30,362 bases of DNA from a virus: positions 1 through 30,362 of IMG/VR virus record IMGVR_UViG_3300042879_001337, one strand, 5' to 3'. This document shows positions 42-26,347 of this stretch, piece after piece; position 1 is the first letter of the stretch, and each line of letters starts with the position of its first letter. Below the pieces are notes generated by a model, which did no database searches, was not told the origin of the DNA, and worked only from the letters and a program-made list of their open reading frames with translations. A program made the position numbers and the translations under genes.

Positions 42-3000
42 ATGCCTAAAGAACATGCTGTAATTGTTATCGGACGATTTCAACCACCAACTGCTGGACA
101 CCATTCGATGGTCCAACATGCCATTGATATGGCAAATAGTCTTGATGCTGACCATATCATATATGGTAGCAAATCAGAGGGAGATGCAGATAATCCACTT
201 CCGAATGATGTTAAAAGAAGACACATGATGAGAGTTTTTGGTACAGAAAATGTAGTTGTCGATAAGAACTTAAAAGATGCCATAGCACAACTCAAACACG
301 CACATGATTTGGGATATAAAAAATTAACATTGGTTGCTGGTGGAAGTAGAGTTAAGGGTTATGAAAATTTTCGTAAATACTTTGGTAAAAAGAACATAAG
401 CGAAAAGACAGGTGCTGTATTAGATCTACGAGGAATCAAACCAGAGAACTTTAATGTCGTTGGATTGCCACGCGATCCAGACAGTGATGCTGGAAAGTTG
501 AGTATCGGATCGGGTGATTTTGATCCAAAAACAGGAAAAATGAAAATTGCAAAAGTATCTGGATCTTTGGTGAGATCAGCAGCAGATACTGGAGACTTTG
601 ACTTATTTCACTCAATGATGCCTTCTCATGTCTCTACTAGAGATTCTAGAGAGTTGATGAGTGATCTGGCAACACATATGAAAAAACTCCGCACAGAGGA
701 ATTACATCCAATTGCTGATAAACTTTTAAACGAAGTTGTTTCTGCACAGACTAGAGTAAAATTAGCAAGAGCAGCAAGAAGAACCGCAAAACGAAGAGCA
801 ATGCTTCGTAAGTTGAGATCAAAGAAAAGAAAAACAAATCCTCAATTGCAAAAGAGAGCAAAGCAACATGTAAAAGATGTTCTAAGAAAAAGAGTATTCA
901 AAGGCAATTGGAAAAAATTATCATACTCACAAAGAGCAAATATAGATGCAAGAATCAATAAGAAAAAAAGAGATATAAGTTCTATGGTTAGAAGAATAAT
1001 GCCAGAAGTTGTAAGAGATGAAACAAAGAGACTACAAAGACTACAAGGATTAACAGATTCATTTGATCCTGTAGTTGATAACTTTTTACAAAACTTTTTA
1101 TCAGAAGCAAGGACACCAAAGCGTCCAGAAAAAGATTCTGAAGGAAAGAAAATAAGAAGAGATCAAAACAGAGAAAATAAAAGAAATCAAAGAGAAAGAG
1201 ATGAAACCAAGATGAAGGCTGGTGATTTCAAAGGCACTATAATGGTCGTCAAAAACGATATTGGTGATATTGAAATCATTGACAAAGAATCTTACAATCC
1301 TGAAATACACGATGTGGTTGTTGCAGCAGATAAAGCAACCAGAGGAAATGTTTCCAAGTTCGTTAAAGATGCAGACTTTGTAAACACAGAAACATCTAAA
1401 AAATTATTTGGTTTGATTAAAAAGGGTGCAGGAAAAGGAAAAACTAAAGAAAAAGCAAAAGAAGAACCAAAGAAAGAAAAGAAAGAATCGTCAAAGGATT
1501 CTTCTAGTGGTATGCAGGAATTACCACAACAATTAGTTCCAGCAACAAAGAAAGCTTCAAAGAAAGATACATTTGCTACATCTCATGGTGCTACTGAAAT
1601 GGAATCTGGTATAGTCTATGCTTTGAATTCCATGCTAGGTCTTACACCTCAACAAATGATTGAAAAAGGTCTTATTGAGAAAAAAGATCTTGATGCTGCA
1701 ATGCAAAACCCCAATGAATCTTTCTTACCATCATGTCAGAGAGCAGCACAACAAATACTTAAACAATTTGGAAAAGTTTATATCAAACACACTGGAAGAC
1801 TGAAAAAAGAAACAAAATTAAATAAAGAAGCAAAAGACAATGGAGTAACTGATAAGACTCCAAAATCTGATTTACTTTTAGTTGATGATAAAGGAACAGT
1901 AGTTGCCACATTATCTCAAAAAATAGGAAATTCACAATTAAGTTCTGGTGGTCCAGCAGAAACCATAACAAATTTAAAATGGTCAATGGCACAAGTTGCT
2001 GATAAATTAGAACCCAGTGCTAAAAAACAAATAGAAAAATTTATTAAATTCTTCGAAGATGAATTAAGTGGAAATCCAAGAACGAAAAAAGGACCAGTTT
2101 CTTTATATCAAAAAGGTTCTGCTAGAGAAGGTCAAGATGAAGAAGTAGCAAGAAGAGAAAGATTGCATGATAAAGCAACTGAAATGTTGAATACAGTTTT
2201 AAATGGTGATAAAAATTTAGCTAAAGCATTTGTTTATTCTCTACTTACAGGTCAGAGCAAATTTGAAGAAGGAAGTCCATCATCAGCAACACACATATTC
2301 AGTGCAAACAGAGATGGTACTGATGCAAAGATTACTCCAATTGATATGGATTATTGCGGAAAAATTCTTGACAAAGTAAAATTTCAAATGAAGTTTAAAT
2401 CTTCAGCAGTAGAAACTACTGATGTTAAAAAGAAGTGGGCGGAATTTGAGGAAAGAAAGAAAAAATTAGGAGAAGAAGTTTCACCAGAAGAAGATTTCCG
2501 TCAATATTCCTTTAGAAGTGTTATTCGTTCATACTTGTTCGAACAAAATTCTTTTCGTAAAAAATTATTAAATATGATAATTGAAAATGCTGAAGAAAAC
2601 AAATTAAAAAATGTTGTCGCAAAAGAACCAACAAATCCAGAAGAAGCACTTCAATATTTAAAAGATGCTTTTGAATATATTGGAGATGATGGTTTTAAGT
2701 TAATACAATTCTTCGAAGATTCAATTGACTTTGATACCACACAACCAATTATTGATTGGTCAGAATATGCTTCAGTTCCTTCCACAACTACAAATAAGAT
2801 TTATGTAAATGGAAAAGAATTTGAAATTCCAGTAGAGGAACCATATAATTATGAAGACAATGGTTCTATGTCTTCTCCATTGTCTGAAGCATATCTAGAA
2901 GAAAAGAAAAGAAATTATCGCAAAGAATATGATAATTATCACTCAAAACCAGAACAAAGAAAGAATCGCAGTAAGAGAGTTCTTGCTCGTAGACTTATGA

Positions 3001-3128
3001 ATAAACTCGGTAGAGTTCGTAAGGGTGATGGTAAAGATGTAGATCATAAAGATGGCAATCCACAAAACAATGGAAAGCACAATCTAAGAGTCAGAGATAA
3101 ATCTGAGAATAGAGCAGACAATGACTAA
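42..3128 (+). CDS. Large modular protein: N-terminal nucleotidyltransferase, basic middle regions, C-terminal HNH-like domain
   Basis: A 1028-aa multidomain protein. Residues 7-20 (VIVIGRFQPPTAGH) and SGSLVRS at 173-179 match the GRFxPxHxGH and ISSTxxR signatures of the NMNAT/cytidylyltransferase superfamily. Residues about 231-350 are extremely Arg/Lys-rich. Residues 510-780 form another domain with a possible PD-(D/E)xK-like patch (SDLLLVD, then SQKIG, 609-629). Residues 955-1028 hold an HNH-like pattern (DVDHKDGNPQNN then NLRV). Short sequences ending in (L/I)xE occur at 227-231 (KLLNE), 352-355 (FLSE) and 951-954 (YLEE), near apparent domain borders. M1 is the only Met before the nucleotidyltransferase motif, which fixes the start. 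Such large nucleotidyltransferase proteins are known in T4-like marine phages, but their role is unclear. A virion or packaged internal protein is my inference from the late promoter and modular layout. Confidence 0.85.
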   Translation: MPKEHAVIVIGRFQPPTAGHHSMVQHAIDMANSLDADHIIYGSKSEGDADNPLPNDVKRRHMMRVFGTENVVVDKNLKDAIAQLKHAHDLGYKKLTLVAGGSRVKGYENFRKYFGKKNISEKTGAVLDLRGIKPENFNVVGLPRDPDSDAGKLSIGSGDFDPKTGKMKIAKVSGSLVRSAADTGDFDLFHSMMPSHVSTRDSRELMSDLATHMKKLRTEELHPIADKLLNEVVSAQTRVKLARAARRTAKRRAMLRKLRSKKRKTNPQLQKRAKQHVKDVLRKRVFKGNWKKLSYSQRANIDARINKKKRDISSMVRRIMPEVVRDETKRLQRLQGLTDSFDPVVDNFLQNFLSEARTPKRPEKDSEGKKIRRDQNRENKRNQRERDETKMKAGDFKGTIMVVKNDIGDIEIIDKESYNPEIHDVVVAADKATRGNVSKFVKDADFVNTETSKKLFGLIKKGAGKGKTKEKAKEEPKKEKKESSKDSSSGMQELPQQLVPATKKASKKDTFATSHGATEMESGIVYALNSMLGLTPQQMIEKGLIEKKDLDAAMQNPNESFLPSCQRAAQQILKQFGKVYIKHTGRLKKETKLNKEAKDNGVTDKTPKSDLLLVDDKGTVVATLSQKIGNSQLSSGGPAETITNLKWSMAQVADKLEPSAKKQIEKFIKFFEDELSGNPRTKKGPVSLYQKGSAREGQDEEVARRERLHDKATEMLNTVLNGDKNLAKAFVYSLLTGQSKFEEGSPSSATHIFSANRDGTDAKITPIDMDYCGKILDKVKFQMKFKSSAVETTDVKKKWAEFEERKKKLGEEVSPEEDFRQYSFRSVIRSYLFEQNSFRKKLLNMIIENAEENKLKNVVAKEPTNPEEALQYLKDAFEYIGDDGFKLIQFFEDSIDFDTTQPIIDWSEYASVPSTTTNKIYVNGKEFEIPVEEPYNYEDNGSMSSPLSEAYLEEKKRNYRKEYDNYHSKPEQRKNRSKRVLARRLMNKLGRVRKGDGKDVDHKDGNPQNNGKHNLRVRDKSENRADND

Positions 3129-15471: not shown

Positions 15472-16179
15472 TTATGTATTCGTCGTAAGCACACTCCAGG
15501 ATTCAGGAAACCAAGGTTCAATTATTTTTCCAATAGCCCTTGCATATTCCTGAACTTCCCATTGTGCGTGTGGATCAATTCTTTGTTTATAAACACGCGC
15601 ATACGCTGGTAGAGATCCTGTCCACCACCATTCTGTATAGACTCCCTGTGGAAGAACAAACCTTGCTTGCTCGGGTGCTACTCCTGCCTCTAGCAAGTCA
15701 TTGTATGCTTCTATTGCAGACTCCGCAGAATCACGATAGATCTTATCGATAGTCATCTTTACCTTTGGATCTTCAATAAAATCTTCCGATCCCTGCTTTG
15801 CTCCGTTCGTTGGTTTACCACGAAAGAATGGATAATAAAGATCTGGTTCATATGAAACATATCTGCGAGAGATTTCGTTCTCCGTAAATCCAACTTTATG
15901 TTTAAAAAGTTGTGTACGAATTGAAATCGGTGCTTTGATTCGCAAAGTAATAGATGTATGTGCGAATGGAGTCCAGTGATTATGATCTGCAAGATACTTT
16001 ACAAGTTTAGAATCTTTTACAGAAAGAATATTGGCAGGGACATGACTATCTGGATGGTCCCATTCACTTTGTTTATTAAATGAAACTCTTGCTGCATTGA
16101 CCACAGTCAAATCAGTACCCATGTGATCAACATATTCGACAAACCCAGAATCAAGGACTGTAATTCTTTCAGTTTTCAT
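15472..16179 (-). CDS. thyX: FAD-dependent thymidylate synthase ThyX
   Basis: A 235-aa flavoenzyme making dTMP from dUMP with methylene-tetrahydrofolate and NAD(P)H. The signature at 93-107 (KHKVGFTENEISRRY) is a variant of the RHRxxSxNExSxRY motif, apparently one residue longer. WTPFAHTSITLRIKAPISIR upstream of it is the usual FAD-binding strand region, and PEQARFVLPQGVYTEW (about 193-208) is the conserved C-terminal dUMP-binding area. AAGGAA precedes the ATG. It overlaps the upstream unknown gene by 11 nt and is followed by nrdJ. Confidence 0.9.
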   Translation of the reverse strand: MKTERITVLDSGFVEYVDHMGTDLTVVNAARVSFNKQSEWDHPDSHVPANILSVKDSKLVKYLADHNHWTPFAHTSITLRIKAPISIRTQLFKHKVGFTENEISRRYVSYEPDLYYPFFRGKPTNGAKQGSEDFIEDPKVKMTIDKIYRDSAESAIEAYNDLLEAGVAPEQARFVLPQGVYTEWWWTGSLPAYARVYKQRIDPHAQWEVQEYARAIGKIIEPWFPESWSVLTTNT

Positions 16180-20089: not shown

Positions 20090-21202
20090 TCAACCGAATA
20101 GGTTTTCTAGTGTATTTTTCTTTTCTGTTGACCAACCGATAATATCCAAAATAGAAGTCAGGGGATCGATGAATGATTTTTCAAATTGTAACTTGTAATC
20201 AATATATCCTTCCAACTTAAATTCCTTTGGAAGAACATTTGAAAATGAAATAACTTGATCCTTTCCCATCACACCACCCAAAGGGTTTGGTGTTTTCAAC
20301 ATGAGAAATTTAATCTTATCACCCTCTTGTATTTTACGATACTTTTTACTGATCTTGAATAGATCAATGTAATGATTATAGATCAAAGCACCCTTGACTG
20401 CAATGGGTGTTGATTTTTTATAAATTGTTCCACGATCAGAATATTTATTCAAACCATTGACACTTCTAGGAAATGCAATGTCTTCTGGTGGTAAAGAATA
20501 AAACTCTTTGCGACATGACTCTACAAAATCAATCATGTCTTGTTCTGTACCATTCATCGTGATGTTGATTGCTCTCTTCAAATGCTTACGAACAAATTCA
20601 GGAGTTGAACTACGAGTAGTTTCAATTCCCATGATTTTGAGTTTTGGTTCAGAATAACGAACACCTTCAGAATCCAATACATTCAACATGTATCTTTTCT
20701 TAGCAGTCCAAATGCCCTTATCCGCAATTACTTCTCTACCCATTTGCATTTTGTTTTCATAGGCATTCATAATCTTGGAAAGTTCTTTAAATTTCTTCTC
20801 AATAAATGGAAGAATAATTTTCTCAGAACAATTATCCAAATAATCTGTTTTCTTTTTGGTAGACTCATTTGGAATAAACTTTTGAACCAAACCACTGAGA
20901 TTCAAATATACAGAATCTGTATCAGAAGCAATTACATAATCAACACCATTAGTTCCAACGGTTTGATTTATAAATTCGTTGAGTTTATTTCCAATCCACT
21001 GAATAGACAACTGACCCGACAGAGTGATTGCCTCTGCGAGTTCAGTTGAATAATATCTGAAATACTGATTTCCTATAGCACCATAAGCAGAGTTCAATTG
21101 AATCTTACGAACAAGTTGGAAATTATTATACTTAGAGATATCCAACTCTGTTTGTCTTTTAAGTTTTAACAATTGATCATCTGATAATTTAGAATAATCC
21201 AT
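20090..21202 (-). CDS. 43B: DNA polymerase, C-terminal half (T4 gp43 / family B, split gene)
   Basis: A 370-aa fragment carrying motif B (KIQLNSAYGAIGNQYFRYYS, 33-52), motif C (ASDTDSVYLNL, DTDS at 94-97) and the thumb region (GKKRYxLNV-like TAKKRYMLNVLD, EPKLKIMGIE). The first residues, from MDYSKL, correspond to the second fingers helix, so this half starts at the fingertip. Motif C has Ala-Ser where T4 and RB69 have Tyr-Gly. The last residues, NTLENLFG, are a clamp-binding-like C-terminus as in T4 and RB69. The start at 21202 is preferred over a codon 7 residues upstream because the promoter -10 lies between them. There is no Shine-Dalgarno sequence. It must pair with the N-terminal half at 24112-25593. 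Confidence 0.9.
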   Translation of the reverse strand: MDYSKLSDDQLLKLKRQTELDISKYNNFQLVRKIQLNSAYGAIGNQYFRYYSTELAEAITLSGQLSIQWIGNKLNEFINQTVGTNGVDYVIASDTDSVYLNLSGLVQKFIPNESTKKKTDYLDNCSEKIILPFIEKKFKELSKIMNAYENKMQMGREVIADKGIWTAKKRYMLNVLDSEGVRYSEPKLKIMGIETTRSSTPEFVRKHLKRAINITMNGTEQDMIDFVESCRKEFYSLPPEDIAFPRSVNGLNKYSDRGTIYKKSTPIAVKGALIYNHYIDLFKISKKYRKIQEGDKIKFLMLKTPNPLGGVMGKDQVISFSNVLPKEFKLEGYIDYKLQFEKSFIDPLTSILDIIGWSTEKKNTLENLFG

Positions 21203-21209
21203 AAAGTAT

Positions 21210-21237
21210 AGTATACCACACAAAAATCAAAAATCAA
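21210..21237 (-). promoter_or_regulatory. Sigma70-type promoter, leaderless, for the C-terminal polymerase half
   Basis: TTGATT (21232-21237), a 16-bp spacer and TGG-TATACT (21210-21215) on the minus strand. The ATG begins 7 nt after the -10, so the first transcribed base would be at the start codon. A second TATACT overlaps at 21205-21210. Confidence 0.6.
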
Positions 21238-23305: not shown

Positions 23306-23387
23306 TACCAAAGGTGGGAATCGAACCCACATGCCGTTAGGCAACGGATTTTGAATCCGCCGCGTCTGCCAGTTCCGCCACATTGGT
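23306..23387 (-). tRNA. tRNA-Leu (anticodon CAA)
   Basis: A class II tRNA on the minus strand. Acceptor ACCAATG pairs with CTTTGGT apart from one U-U mismatch; the T arm is GTGGG-TTCGATT-CCCAC; the anticodon loop is TTCAAAA between GGA and TCC; a long variable arm with TGCC/GGCA-type pairing is present. CCA is not encoded. Reads UUG codons. Confidence 0.85.
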
Positions 23388-23391
23388 GTAA

Positions 23392-23475
23392 TGGGAATGG
23401 TGGGAATCGAACCCACACGATCAATTGATCGACAGATTTTAAGTCTGTTGCGTCTGCCTGTTCCGCCACAATCCC
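23392..23475 (-). tRNA. tRNA-Leu (anticodon UAA)
   Basis: A class II tRNA on the minus strand. Acceptor GGGATTG / CATTCCC with one U-U mismatch, anticodon stem ACAGA/TCTGT with loop CTTAAAA, long variable arm GATCAATTGATC, T arm GTGGG-TTCGATT-CCCAC. CCA not encoded. Reads UUA, a frequent codon in AT-rich genomes. Confidence 0.88.
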
Positions 23476-23478
23476 GAA

Positions 23479-23549
23479 CTACCCCGCCTAGATTCGAACT
23501 AGGAAAAAGAGAACCAAAGTCTCCTGTGATACCGTTTCACCACGGGGTA
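23479..23549 (-). tRNA. tRNA-Gln (anticodon UUG)
   Basis: On the minus strand, acceptor TACCCCG / CGGGGTA, anticodon stem GGAGA/TCTCT with loop CTTTGGT, T arm CCTAG-TTCGAAT-CTAGG. The first base directly follows the stop codon of the SpoU gene, so the tRNA must be cut out of the SpoU transcript. CCA not encoded. Confidence 0.88.
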
Positions 23550-24089
23550 TTAAAACACATTACTTGCAAGTGCGTACATTGCAATACCACTTGCGGTCCC
23601 TACATTCAGACTCCTTACAGTTCCATACTGCTTAATATACAGTATGTGGTCACAGATGTCAAGGATTTCTGTTGGAAGACCGACTTGTTCTTGACCAAAT
23701 GCTAGAACATAATGTGTATTTGTATTCCATGAAAATTCATCAATCGCAGAAGCACCTGGCACATTATCTATGCCAATAACTCGTACTGTTCCGTATGTAC
23801 CTCGAATGATTTTGATTCTTTCTTCAAGTTCAGAAAAGGTTCTGGTATGAAGAAAGTTTGTATAATGATGTGTACCGACAGTGCCGCGACGATCATATTG
23901 CTTTGACCCGTAAAGAATTACTTGCTTCGCAAGGAACGCATTTGAGTTACGAATGACTGTAGCAATATTGAAATCGTTATATAGATTGCTACAAACCACG
24001 GTAAAATTATTCCGCTTCGAATCCAAATCCGCAATGATTGCTTCATGCGACCAATAGTGGTAGTGATCGATGATGTTCCTCGTCTCCAT
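23550..24089 (-). CDS. SpoU/TrmH-family RNA 2'-O-methyltransferase
   Basis: A 179-aa SPOUT methyltransferase using S-adenosylmethionine. Motif 1 is NIATVIRNSNAF (41-52) with catalytic-type Arg47. Motif 2 is LAFGQEQVGLP (129-139). Motif 3 is IKQYGTVRSLNVGTASG (152-168), where Gly replaces the usual Ser of SLNVS. The Leu-Gly knot region is therefore complete. Its size equals the bare catalytic domain, as in TrmL. The only ATG is 6 nt after a consensus -10 box and there is no Shine-Dalgarno, so the mRNA is predicted to be leaderless. Three tRNAs follow on the same transcript, including the two Leu isoacceptors that TrmL modifies at wobble position 34 in E. coli, so those tRNAs are attractive substrates. 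rRNA is an alternative. Confidence 0.88.
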   Translation of the reverse strand: METRNIIDHYHYWSHEAIIADLDSKRNNFTVVCSNLYNDFNIATVIRNSNAFLAKQVILYGSKQYDRRGTVGTHHYTNFLHTRTFSELEERIKIIRGTYGTVRVIGIDNVPGASAIDEFSWNTNTHYVLAFGQEQVGLPTEILDICDHILYIKQYGTVRSLNVGTASGIAMYALASNVF

Positions 24090-24095
24090 AGTGGT

Positions 24096-24123
24096 ATTAT
24101 ACCATATCTGGTCACTTTGTCAA
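24096..24123 (-). promoter_or_regulatory. Consensus sigma70-type promoter, leaderless, for the SpoU-tRNA unit
   Basis: TTGACA (24118-24123) and TGG-TATAAT (24096-24101) with a 16-bp spacer, all on the minus strand. The ATG starts 6 nt after the -10. It overlaps the stop end of the N-terminal polymerase gene. Confidence 0.85.
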
Positions 24124-25593
24124 CCCCCTACGCTTGATTTCTGCGTCAATCTTTTCTAGTTCTTTCTTCGCATCGATCATTTTGTTTTTGAAACTTTTAC
24201 GGTCTTTATACATGTTTTCCATGAGGTCTGGAAGAAATCCACGAACATCTTTTCGATATGTTGTTCCATTTGCTGCAATGGAAAGATTCTTGTCTTTAAA
24301 TTCTTCGATGGATTTCATGGAAACAATTCCTTGCTTTAGAATTCCTTCTGGGGAAATTACACCTCTTGCTCCCTCATTTGTAATGGTTTCGGGAGAAATA
24401 TTGTATTGCATGATCAAGTGGGGATACAGACTGTTCAAGTCATATGACACTACCCAATCATGCATTCCAACAATCGGTTCCTTGACATAAGCACCAGCAT
24501 ATTGCTCGTCCTTACTTCCTCGCTTCTTGGAAGGAATTACAATTCCACGATCACTCAGATAATTGTAAATTATCACATCCCATGTTCGAACTTGAGAGAA
24601 TACATCTTGAAAATTTACTCCAGCAGAATATGCCAATGCAACTGCAAGTTCTATTAGTTTTAGTTTCTCTTCAAGCTTCTGAACAAGTTCGACATCTCGA
24701 ATGTTATACTCAATAAACTTTTGAAAATCTTTCTTGTAGAATTCTGTAATGCTTTCGTATTCAGAATAAGAAAGTTTCTTTTCTCCTAACTCAACATATG
24801 AAATATGATTGAGACTATAAGACTCTTGATTCACATATGTAAATGTTTTGTAAAGTTCATAATAATCTAACATTGATATTCCAACGATATCATACATTAG
24901 ATCTTCTCTGCCTTTTCTACTGATAAACTTCTCTTTGATCTTTCCCCACGGAGAAAGCATCTTTGAGTATTTCTTACCAAGAACTTTAGTAATTCTCTTG
25001 ATTAAATACGGAAAGTCGAAGAAACGAATGTTCCAACCCGAGACAATATCAGGGTAATTTTGCGAAAAATATTCAACAAAAGATTTGAGTAGATCTTCTT
25101 CTGCGGTAAATTCGTAAACTTCAATCTTCTCTGTTGTTTTGAATCTTCCTTTACAGAAAGTTGTCTTTCCATTTTTAGTTGATGAGATCGTGATAGCAAT
25201 AACTTCTTCTTCTGGATTCTCGACAGAGGGGAATCCTTTTTCTGACGATGTTTCGATGTCGATGTATGCGATATCGAGTTTTGAGAAGTCATATGAGATA
25301 CTGGTTCCGTAAATATTATTTATAAATTTATATTCTACAGGAATATCGCCATGAATATCAAAGTTCTTAATGTTGGAATATTGATCAATAAATTCTTTGT
25401 AAGAATCATATGATTCAAATTTTATTTCGGAAAGATATTTCCCATCAATGGATTTGAACTTTGTCTTGTCGTTTGATGACAAGAACAAAGAGTTTTGAAA
25501 ATCAACTTCATTATAATTAGTATCTCCAAATTCATCCTTCTCTGCAAGGAGAATTTTCTTGTAATCATAATAAACATTCGTGTAAAACTTCAT
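24112..25593 (-). CDS. 43A: DNA polymerase, N-terminal half (T4 gp43 / family B, split gene)
   Basis: A 493-aa fragment with a complete 3'-5' exonuclease: Exo I YIDIETSS (Asp112, Glu114), Exo II GWNIRFFDFPYL (Asp193) and Exo III YNIRDVELV (Asp300). Polymerase motif A is SYDLNSLYPHLIMQYN (Asp385). It ends in MYKDRKSFKNKMIDAKKELE and IDAEIKRRGLTK, matching the first fingers helix of RB69 polymerase, so it stops at the fingertip before motif B. Together with the 370-aa half the total is 863 aa, close to the 903 of RB69. The start at 25593 is chosen because the -10 box lies between it and an earlier in-frame codon at 25620. No Shine-Dalgarno is present. Confidence 0.92.
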   Translation of the reverse strand: MKFYTNVYYDYKKILLAEKDEFGDTNYNEVDFQNSLFLSSNDKTKFKSIDGKYLSEIKFESYDSYKEFIDQYSNIKNFDIHGDIPVEYKFINNIYGTSISYDFSKLDIAYIDIETSSEKGFPSVENPEEEVIAITISSTKNGKTTFCKGRFKTTEKIEVYEFTAEEDLLKSFVEYFSQNYPDIVSGWNIRFFDFPYLIKRITKVLGKKYSKMLSPWGKIKEKFISRKGREDLMYDIVGISMLDYYELYKTFTYVNQESYSLNHISYVELGEKKLSYSEYESITEFYKKDFQKFIEYNIRDVELVQKLEEKLKLIELAVALAYSAGVNFQDVFSQVRTWDVIIYNYLSDRGIVIPSKKRGSKDEQYAGAYVKEPIVGMHDWVVSYDLNSLYPHLIMQYNISPETITNEGARGVISPEGILKQGIVSMKSIEEFKDKNLSIAANGTTYRKDVRGFLPDLMENMYKDRKSFKNKMIDAKKELEKIDAEIKRRGLTK

Positions 25594-25599
25594 ATGCGT

Positions 25600-25628
25600 A
25601 TTATACCATACCATTCTCATCTACACAA
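25600..25628 (-). promoter_or_regulatory. Extended -10 promoter, leaderless, for the N-terminal polymerase half
   Basis: TATGG-TATAAT (-10 at 25600-25605) with a weak TTGTGT at 17 bp on the minus strand. The ATG begins 6 nt downstream. The string ATGGTATAATAC is also found at the SpoU and PEP-CTERM promoters. Confidence 0.6.
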
Positions 25629-26347
25629 CAATTATCTAAACACTTTTCAAATGGTTTTGCTTTGATATTTGTTTGATGATCGTGAAACTTTTGACCATCC
25701 TTGTATATTCCACGCAAATAATCTCTTTCACCTTTGTTTCCATTTTCTTTTAGATGAGCATTATAGTGCTTTCTTGAATCTGCCCATTCTCTATACTTCT
25801 GATTAAATTCTGGATCGTTTTCTAAAGATTCAATTCTTGGATCAAATTGCTCTATAAAATTTCTTTGATAAGGAAATATAGTACAGAATGGTTCTCCTTC
25901 TTCGAATATCACATCATAATTTGGTTCTGTTATCTTCCAATTCATGGTGAATGTAAATGGCAACCAATCTGTCTCTACCATTCCCTCAAGAGGACTTACT
26001 CCTCTCTTTGGATTATTTGCTGGTCCCTTGACATAAAGATTTATTCCAGGATCAGTCTTCATCAAGTAACCAGTGTGCATGGTGATGATACCAGATCCGA
26101 AGTGAGACAATGCAATTTCTGGTTTACCAAAAAAATTAAACTTGACTGCTCCAATATCATTATTACCATTCCATCTTGCAGCAAATTTATAAGGACAAAC
26201 AAATGTCCATCCAAATCCATTTGCAACTGTCAATGGAAGACAACGATACGCAAATCCATTCGGCGTATCGTCCATCCACTTTCTTTTTTTGTCTGGCAAA
26301 TGTATATCGGTGATCTGATGACCAGCAATGTATGCAGTGATTTTCAT
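25601..26347 (-). CDS. DUF6065-like protein (248 aa)
   Basis: A 248-aa protein with a conserved-looking block WMDDTPNGFAYRCLP (24-38), followed by ANGFGWTFVCP and AARWNG, which I recall as typical of DUF6065 proteins found in phages and some bacteria. The C-terminal part is charged and Lys/His-rich with Cys residues at the end (CLDNCC). It overlaps the Nmad1-like gene by ATGA. Function unknown; beta-rich, possibly an enzyme of small-molecule or DNA modification, by neighbourhood only. Confidence 0.7.
   Translation of the reverse strand: MKITAYIAGHQITDIHLPDKKRKWMDDTPNGFAYRCLPLTVANGFGWTFVCPYKFAARWNGNNDIGAVKFNFFGKPEIALSHFGSGIITMHTGYLMKTDPGINLYVKGPANNPKRGVSPLEGMVETDWLPFTFTMNWKITEPNYDVIFEEGEPFCTIFPYQRNFIEQFDPRIESLENDPEFNQKYREWADSRKHYNAHLKENGNKGERDYLRGIYKDGQKFHDHQTNIKAKPFEKCLDNCCVDENGMV

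Follow-up and report, generated by a model that had tools for sequence, protein, structure and literature searches.

Gene content of the locus

The DNA analysed here, called the window throughout, is a stretch of 30,362 bases from an IMG/VR virus record and derives from a T4-like environmental phage. Its minus strand was found to carry a gene for a SpoU/TrmH-fold RNA 2'-O-methyltransferase of 179 aa (SpoU) and a group of three tRNA genes, all of them located between the two halves of a DNA polymerase gene (Table 1). Along this strand, the N-terminal half of the polymerase is followed by SpoU, tRNA-Gln, tRNA-Leu(UAA), tRNA-Leu(CAA), small ORFs, a gene for a DUF5856 protein, the C-terminal half of the polymerase, a 346-aa ORF and a gene for a DnaB-like helicase. 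There is no gap between SpoU and tRNA-Gln, as the stop codon of the former ends at 23550 and the latter begins at the adjacent base, 23549. This arrangement of a methylase gene and three tRNA genes on the same strand, with tRNA-Gln abutting the SpoU stop, had been noticed from the sequence alone (hereafter the sequence-only reading) and was confirmed by ARAGORN, Rfam and Pfam, the three tRNAs scoring 53–56 bits against an Rfam tRNA threshold of 29 bits.

Table 1 Features of the SpoU-tRNA locus and of the split polymerase gene, in order along the minus strand.
Feature	Position in window	Strand	Evidence
Family-B DNA polymerase, N-terminal half (gp43A-like; exonuclease domain and start of polymerase domain)	24112..25620	-	Pfam, PHROG
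Sigma-70 consensus promoter TTGACA-N16-TATAAT, extended-TG -10	24096..24123	-	12/12 match
SpoU/TrmH-fold RNA 2'-O-methyltransferase, 179 aa	23550..24089	-	Pfam SpoU_methylase
tRNA-Gln(UUG)	23479..23549	-	ARAGORN; Rfam 56.1 bits
tRNA-Leu(UAA)	23392..23475	-	ARAGORN; Rfam 56.4 bits
tRNA-Leu(CAA)	23306..23387	-	ARAGORN; Rfam 53.4 bits
DNA polymerase, C-terminal half (gp43B-like)	20090..21223	-	Pfam, PHROG

In the window genes, 48% of the Leu codons are TTA or TTG, and 78% of the Gln codons are CAA. Given this AT-leaning codon use, the phage tRNAs could plausibly be of advantage in serving these codons, and the suggestion of the sequence-only reading that they help to decode AT-rich codons fits these figures and is plausible to that extent. 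Two further genes were recorded in the window. One (42-3125, plus strand) encodes a protein of 1028 aa whose N-terminus resembles a cytidylyltransferase and whose C-terminus is HNH_3-like (phrog_3041; PF13392). The other (25601-26347, minus strand) encodes a DUF6065 protein (277 bits) and lies directly upstream of the N-terminal half of the polymerase; it is present in some relatives and missing from others.

Promoter upstream of SpoU

The sigma-70 consensus promoter in front of SpoU has a -10 box that ends 6 nt before the ATG. About 0.07 sites with a 12/12 match are expected at the composition of the window, and two were seen, the one upstream of SpoU and one elsewhere. The promoter is present with at most one mismatch in 50 of the 56 loci that have the N-terminal half of the polymerase directly upstream, and in the same 56 loci the motifs GGAG, GAGG and AGGA were found in none of the Shine-Dalgarno regions. 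Over all passing loci the promoters have 31 distinct spacers, and the distance from the -10 box to the start codon is 6–8 nt in 56 of 57; the hexamers are thus kept while the spacers vary, which argues for a promoter function. SpoU loci in other settings mostly lack this promoter, and some have an SD-like motif. With a perfect promoter located right before the ATG, the proposal of the sequence-only reading that SpoU heads a transcript is plausible for what is a predicted RNA, and the transcript of SpoU and the tRNAs, judged from these motifs, is likely to be leaderless and to start at the ATG.

A second promoter-like site (23634-23662, minus strand, 11/12) lies within SpoU towards its 3' end, 85 nt ahead of tRNA-Gln, and is kept in close relatives. 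It was not accepted as a real promoter, its conservation being explainable by coding constraint.

The SpoU protein

The product of the SpoU gene belongs to the SpoU_methylase family (PF00588; 83.7 bits, cut-off 29.7) and has the catalytic motifs of the SPOUT superfamily, with N41, R47, E134, S160 and N162 invariant in an alignment of 18 sequences. Comparison with five relatives gave dN/dS values of 0.085–0.118, about 0.09, indicating strong purifying selection. The protein had been described as a bare SpoU domain, which holds for its C-terminal side, where no extension is present, but not for its N-terminal side, where the domain is preceded by a conserved extension of about 27 residues (1–27).

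The AF2 model of the protein (pLDDT 86.5, pTM 0.85) has the predicted alpha/beta-knot fold of SPOUT enzymes, and the best VIA structural matches listed were all SPOUT methyltransferases, with Z values of 14.4–18.5. The highest value was obtained with the rRNA methyltransferase AviRb (18.5), followed by TrmH (18.3 and 18.2), TARBP1 (18.0) and RlmB (17.3), while TrmL matched at about 15–16.6; YsgA and RlmR fall with RlmB at about 17–18. As matches within 1 Z were counted as tied, AviRb is tied with TrmH and others. Among the solved structures listed, those that cover the N-terminal extension, from residue 8–10 onwards, are of TrmH (1v2x, 7edc and 1zjr).

Since AviRb, tied with TrmH, tops the structural matches, an rRNA target has to be considered, in which an AviRb- or RlmB-like enzyme acts on host ribosomes and the neighbouring tRNAs are simply members of a shared translation module. 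The best NCBIfam score was likewise that for RlmB (TIGR00186, 46.9 bits); however, it is far under the cut-off of 160.15, the alignment begins only at model position 75, and a protein of 179 aa is too short to include an RlmB-like N-terminal domain.

Relatives of SpoU and family assignment

The scores against the models for TrmH (NF008295, 39.8 bits, cut-off 227), TrmJ (TIGR00050, 30.1 bits, cut-off 167.15) and TrmL (TIGR00185, 26 bits, cut-off 190.6) were also below the respective cut-offs. One pattern scan disclosed relatives of SpoU encoded in 361 IMG/VR stretches. Full-length cellular relatives that include the N-terminal extension were found in 26 of 198 Actinomycetota genomes, at 135–217 bits with the next score at 71, and among 99 Bacteroidota genomes no full-length orthologue was found apart from a single tRNA-bearing contig in a Flavobacteriales MAG, which is probably of phage origin.

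The Actinomycetota proteins (e.g. L230-L255) resemble the phage proteins over their full length, including the RNxxDxxxYW motif of the N-terminal extension, and the two form one clade with 98–99% SH-aLRT support, apart from the TrmL, TrmH and RlmB references. Most members of this uncharacterised cellular family have a TDRYQH-like stretch, as opposed to GTHHY in the phage proteins. Rv0380c of M. tuberculosis may be a further member.

The sequence-only reading had drawn an analogy with TrmL, by which the phage enzyme would methylate the ribose at position 34 (Nm34) of the phage tRNA-Leu(UAA) and tRNA-Leu(CAA). The two proteins do have in common a SPOUT domain without a C-terminal domain, and the two Leu tRNAs are neighbours of SpoU in the window. 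Nevertheless, membership of SpoU in the TrmL family, whose domain begins right at the N-terminus, was rejected on the score and the N-terminal extension. TrmL is a separate group (96%) in the best tree, and the phage SpoU falls outside it; nesting of the phage and Actinomycetota clade within TrmL is disfavoured, though not rejected (p 0.10–0.12), and AU tests of joining the clade with TrmL, TrmH or RlmB preferred no placement. In addition, a member of the Actinomycetota SpoU family and a TrmL-type gene occur together in two actinobacterial genomes (G031 and G061), which suggests that the two have different jobs. The phylogeny of the methylase, proposed earlier as a check of the analogy, placed SpoU with the Actinomycetota family in a clade of its own, and the grouping with RlmB or TrmH that had been named as evidence against a TrmL-like role was not shown either.

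TrmH, which forms Gm18 in tRNA, shares with the phage SpoU the SPOUT fold, the SLNV motif and an N-terminal helix that was aligned in the structure comparison. It differs by a C-terminal extension missing from the phage protein, and besides the low score of SpoU with its model it lies in a separate clade in the best tree. Streptomyces XNR_5296 (Nm32) was considered as a functional proxy and set aside, as it probably belongs to another family because of its eL30-like N-terminal domain.

Distant relatives (30–33%) are encoded by the Rhodococcus phages NiceHouse and Trina (L083 and L084), with no tRNA within 6 kb. In NiceHouse and one Trina record, the annotation of this gene is tRNA-methyltransferase and nothing further. 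Phages that carry tRNAs together with tRNA-modifying enzymes are already known (PMC7162821); a paper on the tRNA-linked SpoU clade was not found in the literature searched, of which coverage was partial.

Linkage of SpoU to tRNA genes

Among 121 loci with enough flanking sequence, a tRNA gene was present within 3 kb of SpoU in 115 and within 600 nt in 108, and all 783 tRNAs in these loci are on the SpoU strand. For the large tRNA-bearing phage contigs (74–354 kb), a tRNA lies at most 600 nt from SpoU in 13 of 15, the expectation for random genes being 1.08; the resulting P of about 5e-14 assumes independent contigs and is too small because the phage contigs are related.

SpoU was also found in two contigs devoid of tRNA genes, namely G013 (L405-L411; 122,654 b), where neither ARAGORN nor Rfam detected any, and G023 (L446-L450; an 85,651-b fragment), where ARAGORN detected none. 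Both have a GC content of about 0.49, above that of the tRNA-bearing contigs, and may represent one lineage. The phage tRNAs are therefore not obligatory partners of SpoU, and G013 is a point in favour of an rRNA target. Against it stands the tight linkage to tRNA genes across many lineages, and together with the poor fit to RlmB described above this leaves an rRNA methyltransferase as an improbable identity for SpoU.

The split DNA polymerase

The N-terminal half of the polymerase can be aligned with the RB69/T4-type enzyme as far as about residue 499, and the C-terminal half with the T4-type polymerase from about residue 529. In the alignment this break coincides with the end of gp43A of Aeromonas phage 25, which identifies the two window genes as a split gp43A/gp43B pair. 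The closest cultured matches of the N-terminal half are polymerases of T4-like cyanophages, at about 48% identity. Gene 43 is split in phages 25 and 44RR, the order of events being unclear according to a review, and the two halves from phage 25 co-purify with polymerase activity (PMC2988022). The break point in phage 25 is identical to that in the window, but the phage 25 gap holds a homing endonuclease (PMC2988022), whereas that of the window holds SpoU, tRNAs and small ORFs.

Both polymerase halves were readable in 73 loci or contigs, with the gene intact in 59 and split in 14; these fractions are not population estimates because the loci were drawn from PolC hits and a few SpoU loci. SpoU and tRNAs occupy the gap in 12 of the 14 split genes, while one of the remaining two gaps contains tRNAs and an HNH endonuclease (L342) and the other a GIY-YIG endonuclease (L368). 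The SpoU-tRNA cassette probably came to occupy the 43A/43B gap that is known from T4-like phages and is elsewhere home to homing endonucleases.

Contigs G006 and G009 have an intact polymerase, with SpoU located in a tRNA array elsewhere in the contig; SpoU is therefore linked to the tRNAs and not to the polymerase. The phage module of tRNAs and methylase put forward in the sequence-only reading thus recurs across a diversity of phages, both in the polymerase gap and in separate tRNA arrays, with a conserved promoter and under strong purifying selection. The view that SpoU is a passenger of tRNA and homing-endonuclease islands, functionally unrelated to the tRNAs, draws on the HNH and GIY-YIG endonucleases housed at the split site and on an HNH family that recurs near SpoU in 15 loci, but it is very doubtful given the low dN/dS, the invariant catalytic residues, the conserved promoter and the retention of the tRNA link where the polymerase is intact.

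Candidate tRNA substrates and target position

Both Leu tRNAs of the window have, as read from the sequence, the loop C/U34-A35-A36-A37-A38, in keeping with a TrmL-like activity. At least one of Leu(UAA) and Leu(CAA) is present in all 15 tRNA-bearing SpoU contigs, and in each of the four large SpoU contigs with only 3–4 tRNAs it is Leu(CAA) that lies closest to SpoU. However, among these SpoU-bearing contigs Lys(UUU) and Arg(UCU) likewise occur in 15 of 15, and a strict tie to Leu tRNAs was discarded. In an analysis of 33 clusters, SpoU had Gln as its nearest tRNA in 12, against an expectation of 4.6, and Leu-NAA in 8, against an expectation of 8.1; the two nearest included Leu-NAA in 19 (13.4 expected, p 0.006), Gln in 16 (9.0 expected) and Glu in 11 (5.0 expected). 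One locus (L050) has no Leu tRNA between its polymerase halves.

The Leu tRNAs are thus not singled out as the TrmL analogy implies, the nearest position favouring Gln and the enrichment of Leu among the two nearest being shared with Glu. Reading the substrate off the nearest tRNA was abandoned as well, since Gln, Leu and Glu are each enriched in some form; the neighbours of SpoU vary among Gln, Leu, Glu, Gly, Ile, Asp and Pro, and therefore the isoacceptor is not readable from synteny. Taking these data with the phylogeny, methylation of position 34 of the two Leu tRNAs by a TrmL-like enzyme is considered unlikely.

In E. coli, TrmH introduces Gm18 into the tRNAs for Leu, Ser, Tyr and Gln (PMC11640301) and so uses tRNAs of the kinds found beside SpoU in the window. 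By analogy, this range would cover the Gln and two Leu tRNAs better than that of TrmL, although its source is a single organism and it leaves out tRNA-Glu, among others. A target in the tRNA body is also favoured by the listed structures that reach into the N-terminal extension, all of them of TrmH. G18 is the leading guess for the target position, a tentative one that is weakened because the C-terminal extension of TrmH is absent from SpoU; positions 34 and 32 are each less probable candidates.

Proposed role of the SpoU-tRNA cassette

The phage SpoU proteins are best read as a clade of phage tRNA 2'-O-methyltransferases that is so far uncharacterised. It seems fairly likely that the window protein is a SPOUT-fold 2'-O-ribose methyltransferase of this clade, kin to the uncharacterised Actinomycetota family, which is expressed with the phage tRNAs and methylates one tRNA nucleotide. 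Transcription from the strong host-type promoter would cover SpoU and the tRNAs and would probably be early, and the leaderless SpoU message would probably run on into the tRNAs. The enzyme would then 2'-O-methylate one nucleotide in the phage tRNAs, its probable substrates, and perhaps in host tRNAs, and this methylation may stabilise or tune the tRNA pool during infection.

In another scenario, which we regard as rather improbable, a phage-dedicated tRNA 2'-O-methyltransferase of new specificity, made early together with the phage tRNAs, would block the 2'-OH at a site where host defence nucleases attack tRNAs, and the modified tRNAs of phage and host would thereby outlast the infection. Anti-phage defence models gave no match to SpoU or to six other window proteins that were scanned.

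A tRNA 2'-O-methyltransferase that is expressed with the phage tRNAs bears on the largely unsettled question of whether host or phage enzymes modify phage tRNAs. In a single study on a T4-like vibriophage, the tRNA modifications were shared with the host, suggesting the action of host enzymes (review PMC13191261). A widespread methyltransferase of tRNA islands, with its own promoter and under strong selection, offers a genetic handle on 2'-O-methylation, and a function for the phage SpoU would also give the first function to the conserved Actinomycetota enzyme family.

Sigma-70 promoters were also observed close to other phage tRNA genes. In G007 (L284-L289) consensus promoters end near several tRNA 5' ends, for example at 16118 before tRNA-Ile at 16155, and another ends at 20109 before tRNA-Arg at 20145. 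Over the large contigs, 11 of 137 tRNAs have a sigma-70 match with at most one mismatch within 50 nt upstream, compared with 0 of 137 random 50-mers.
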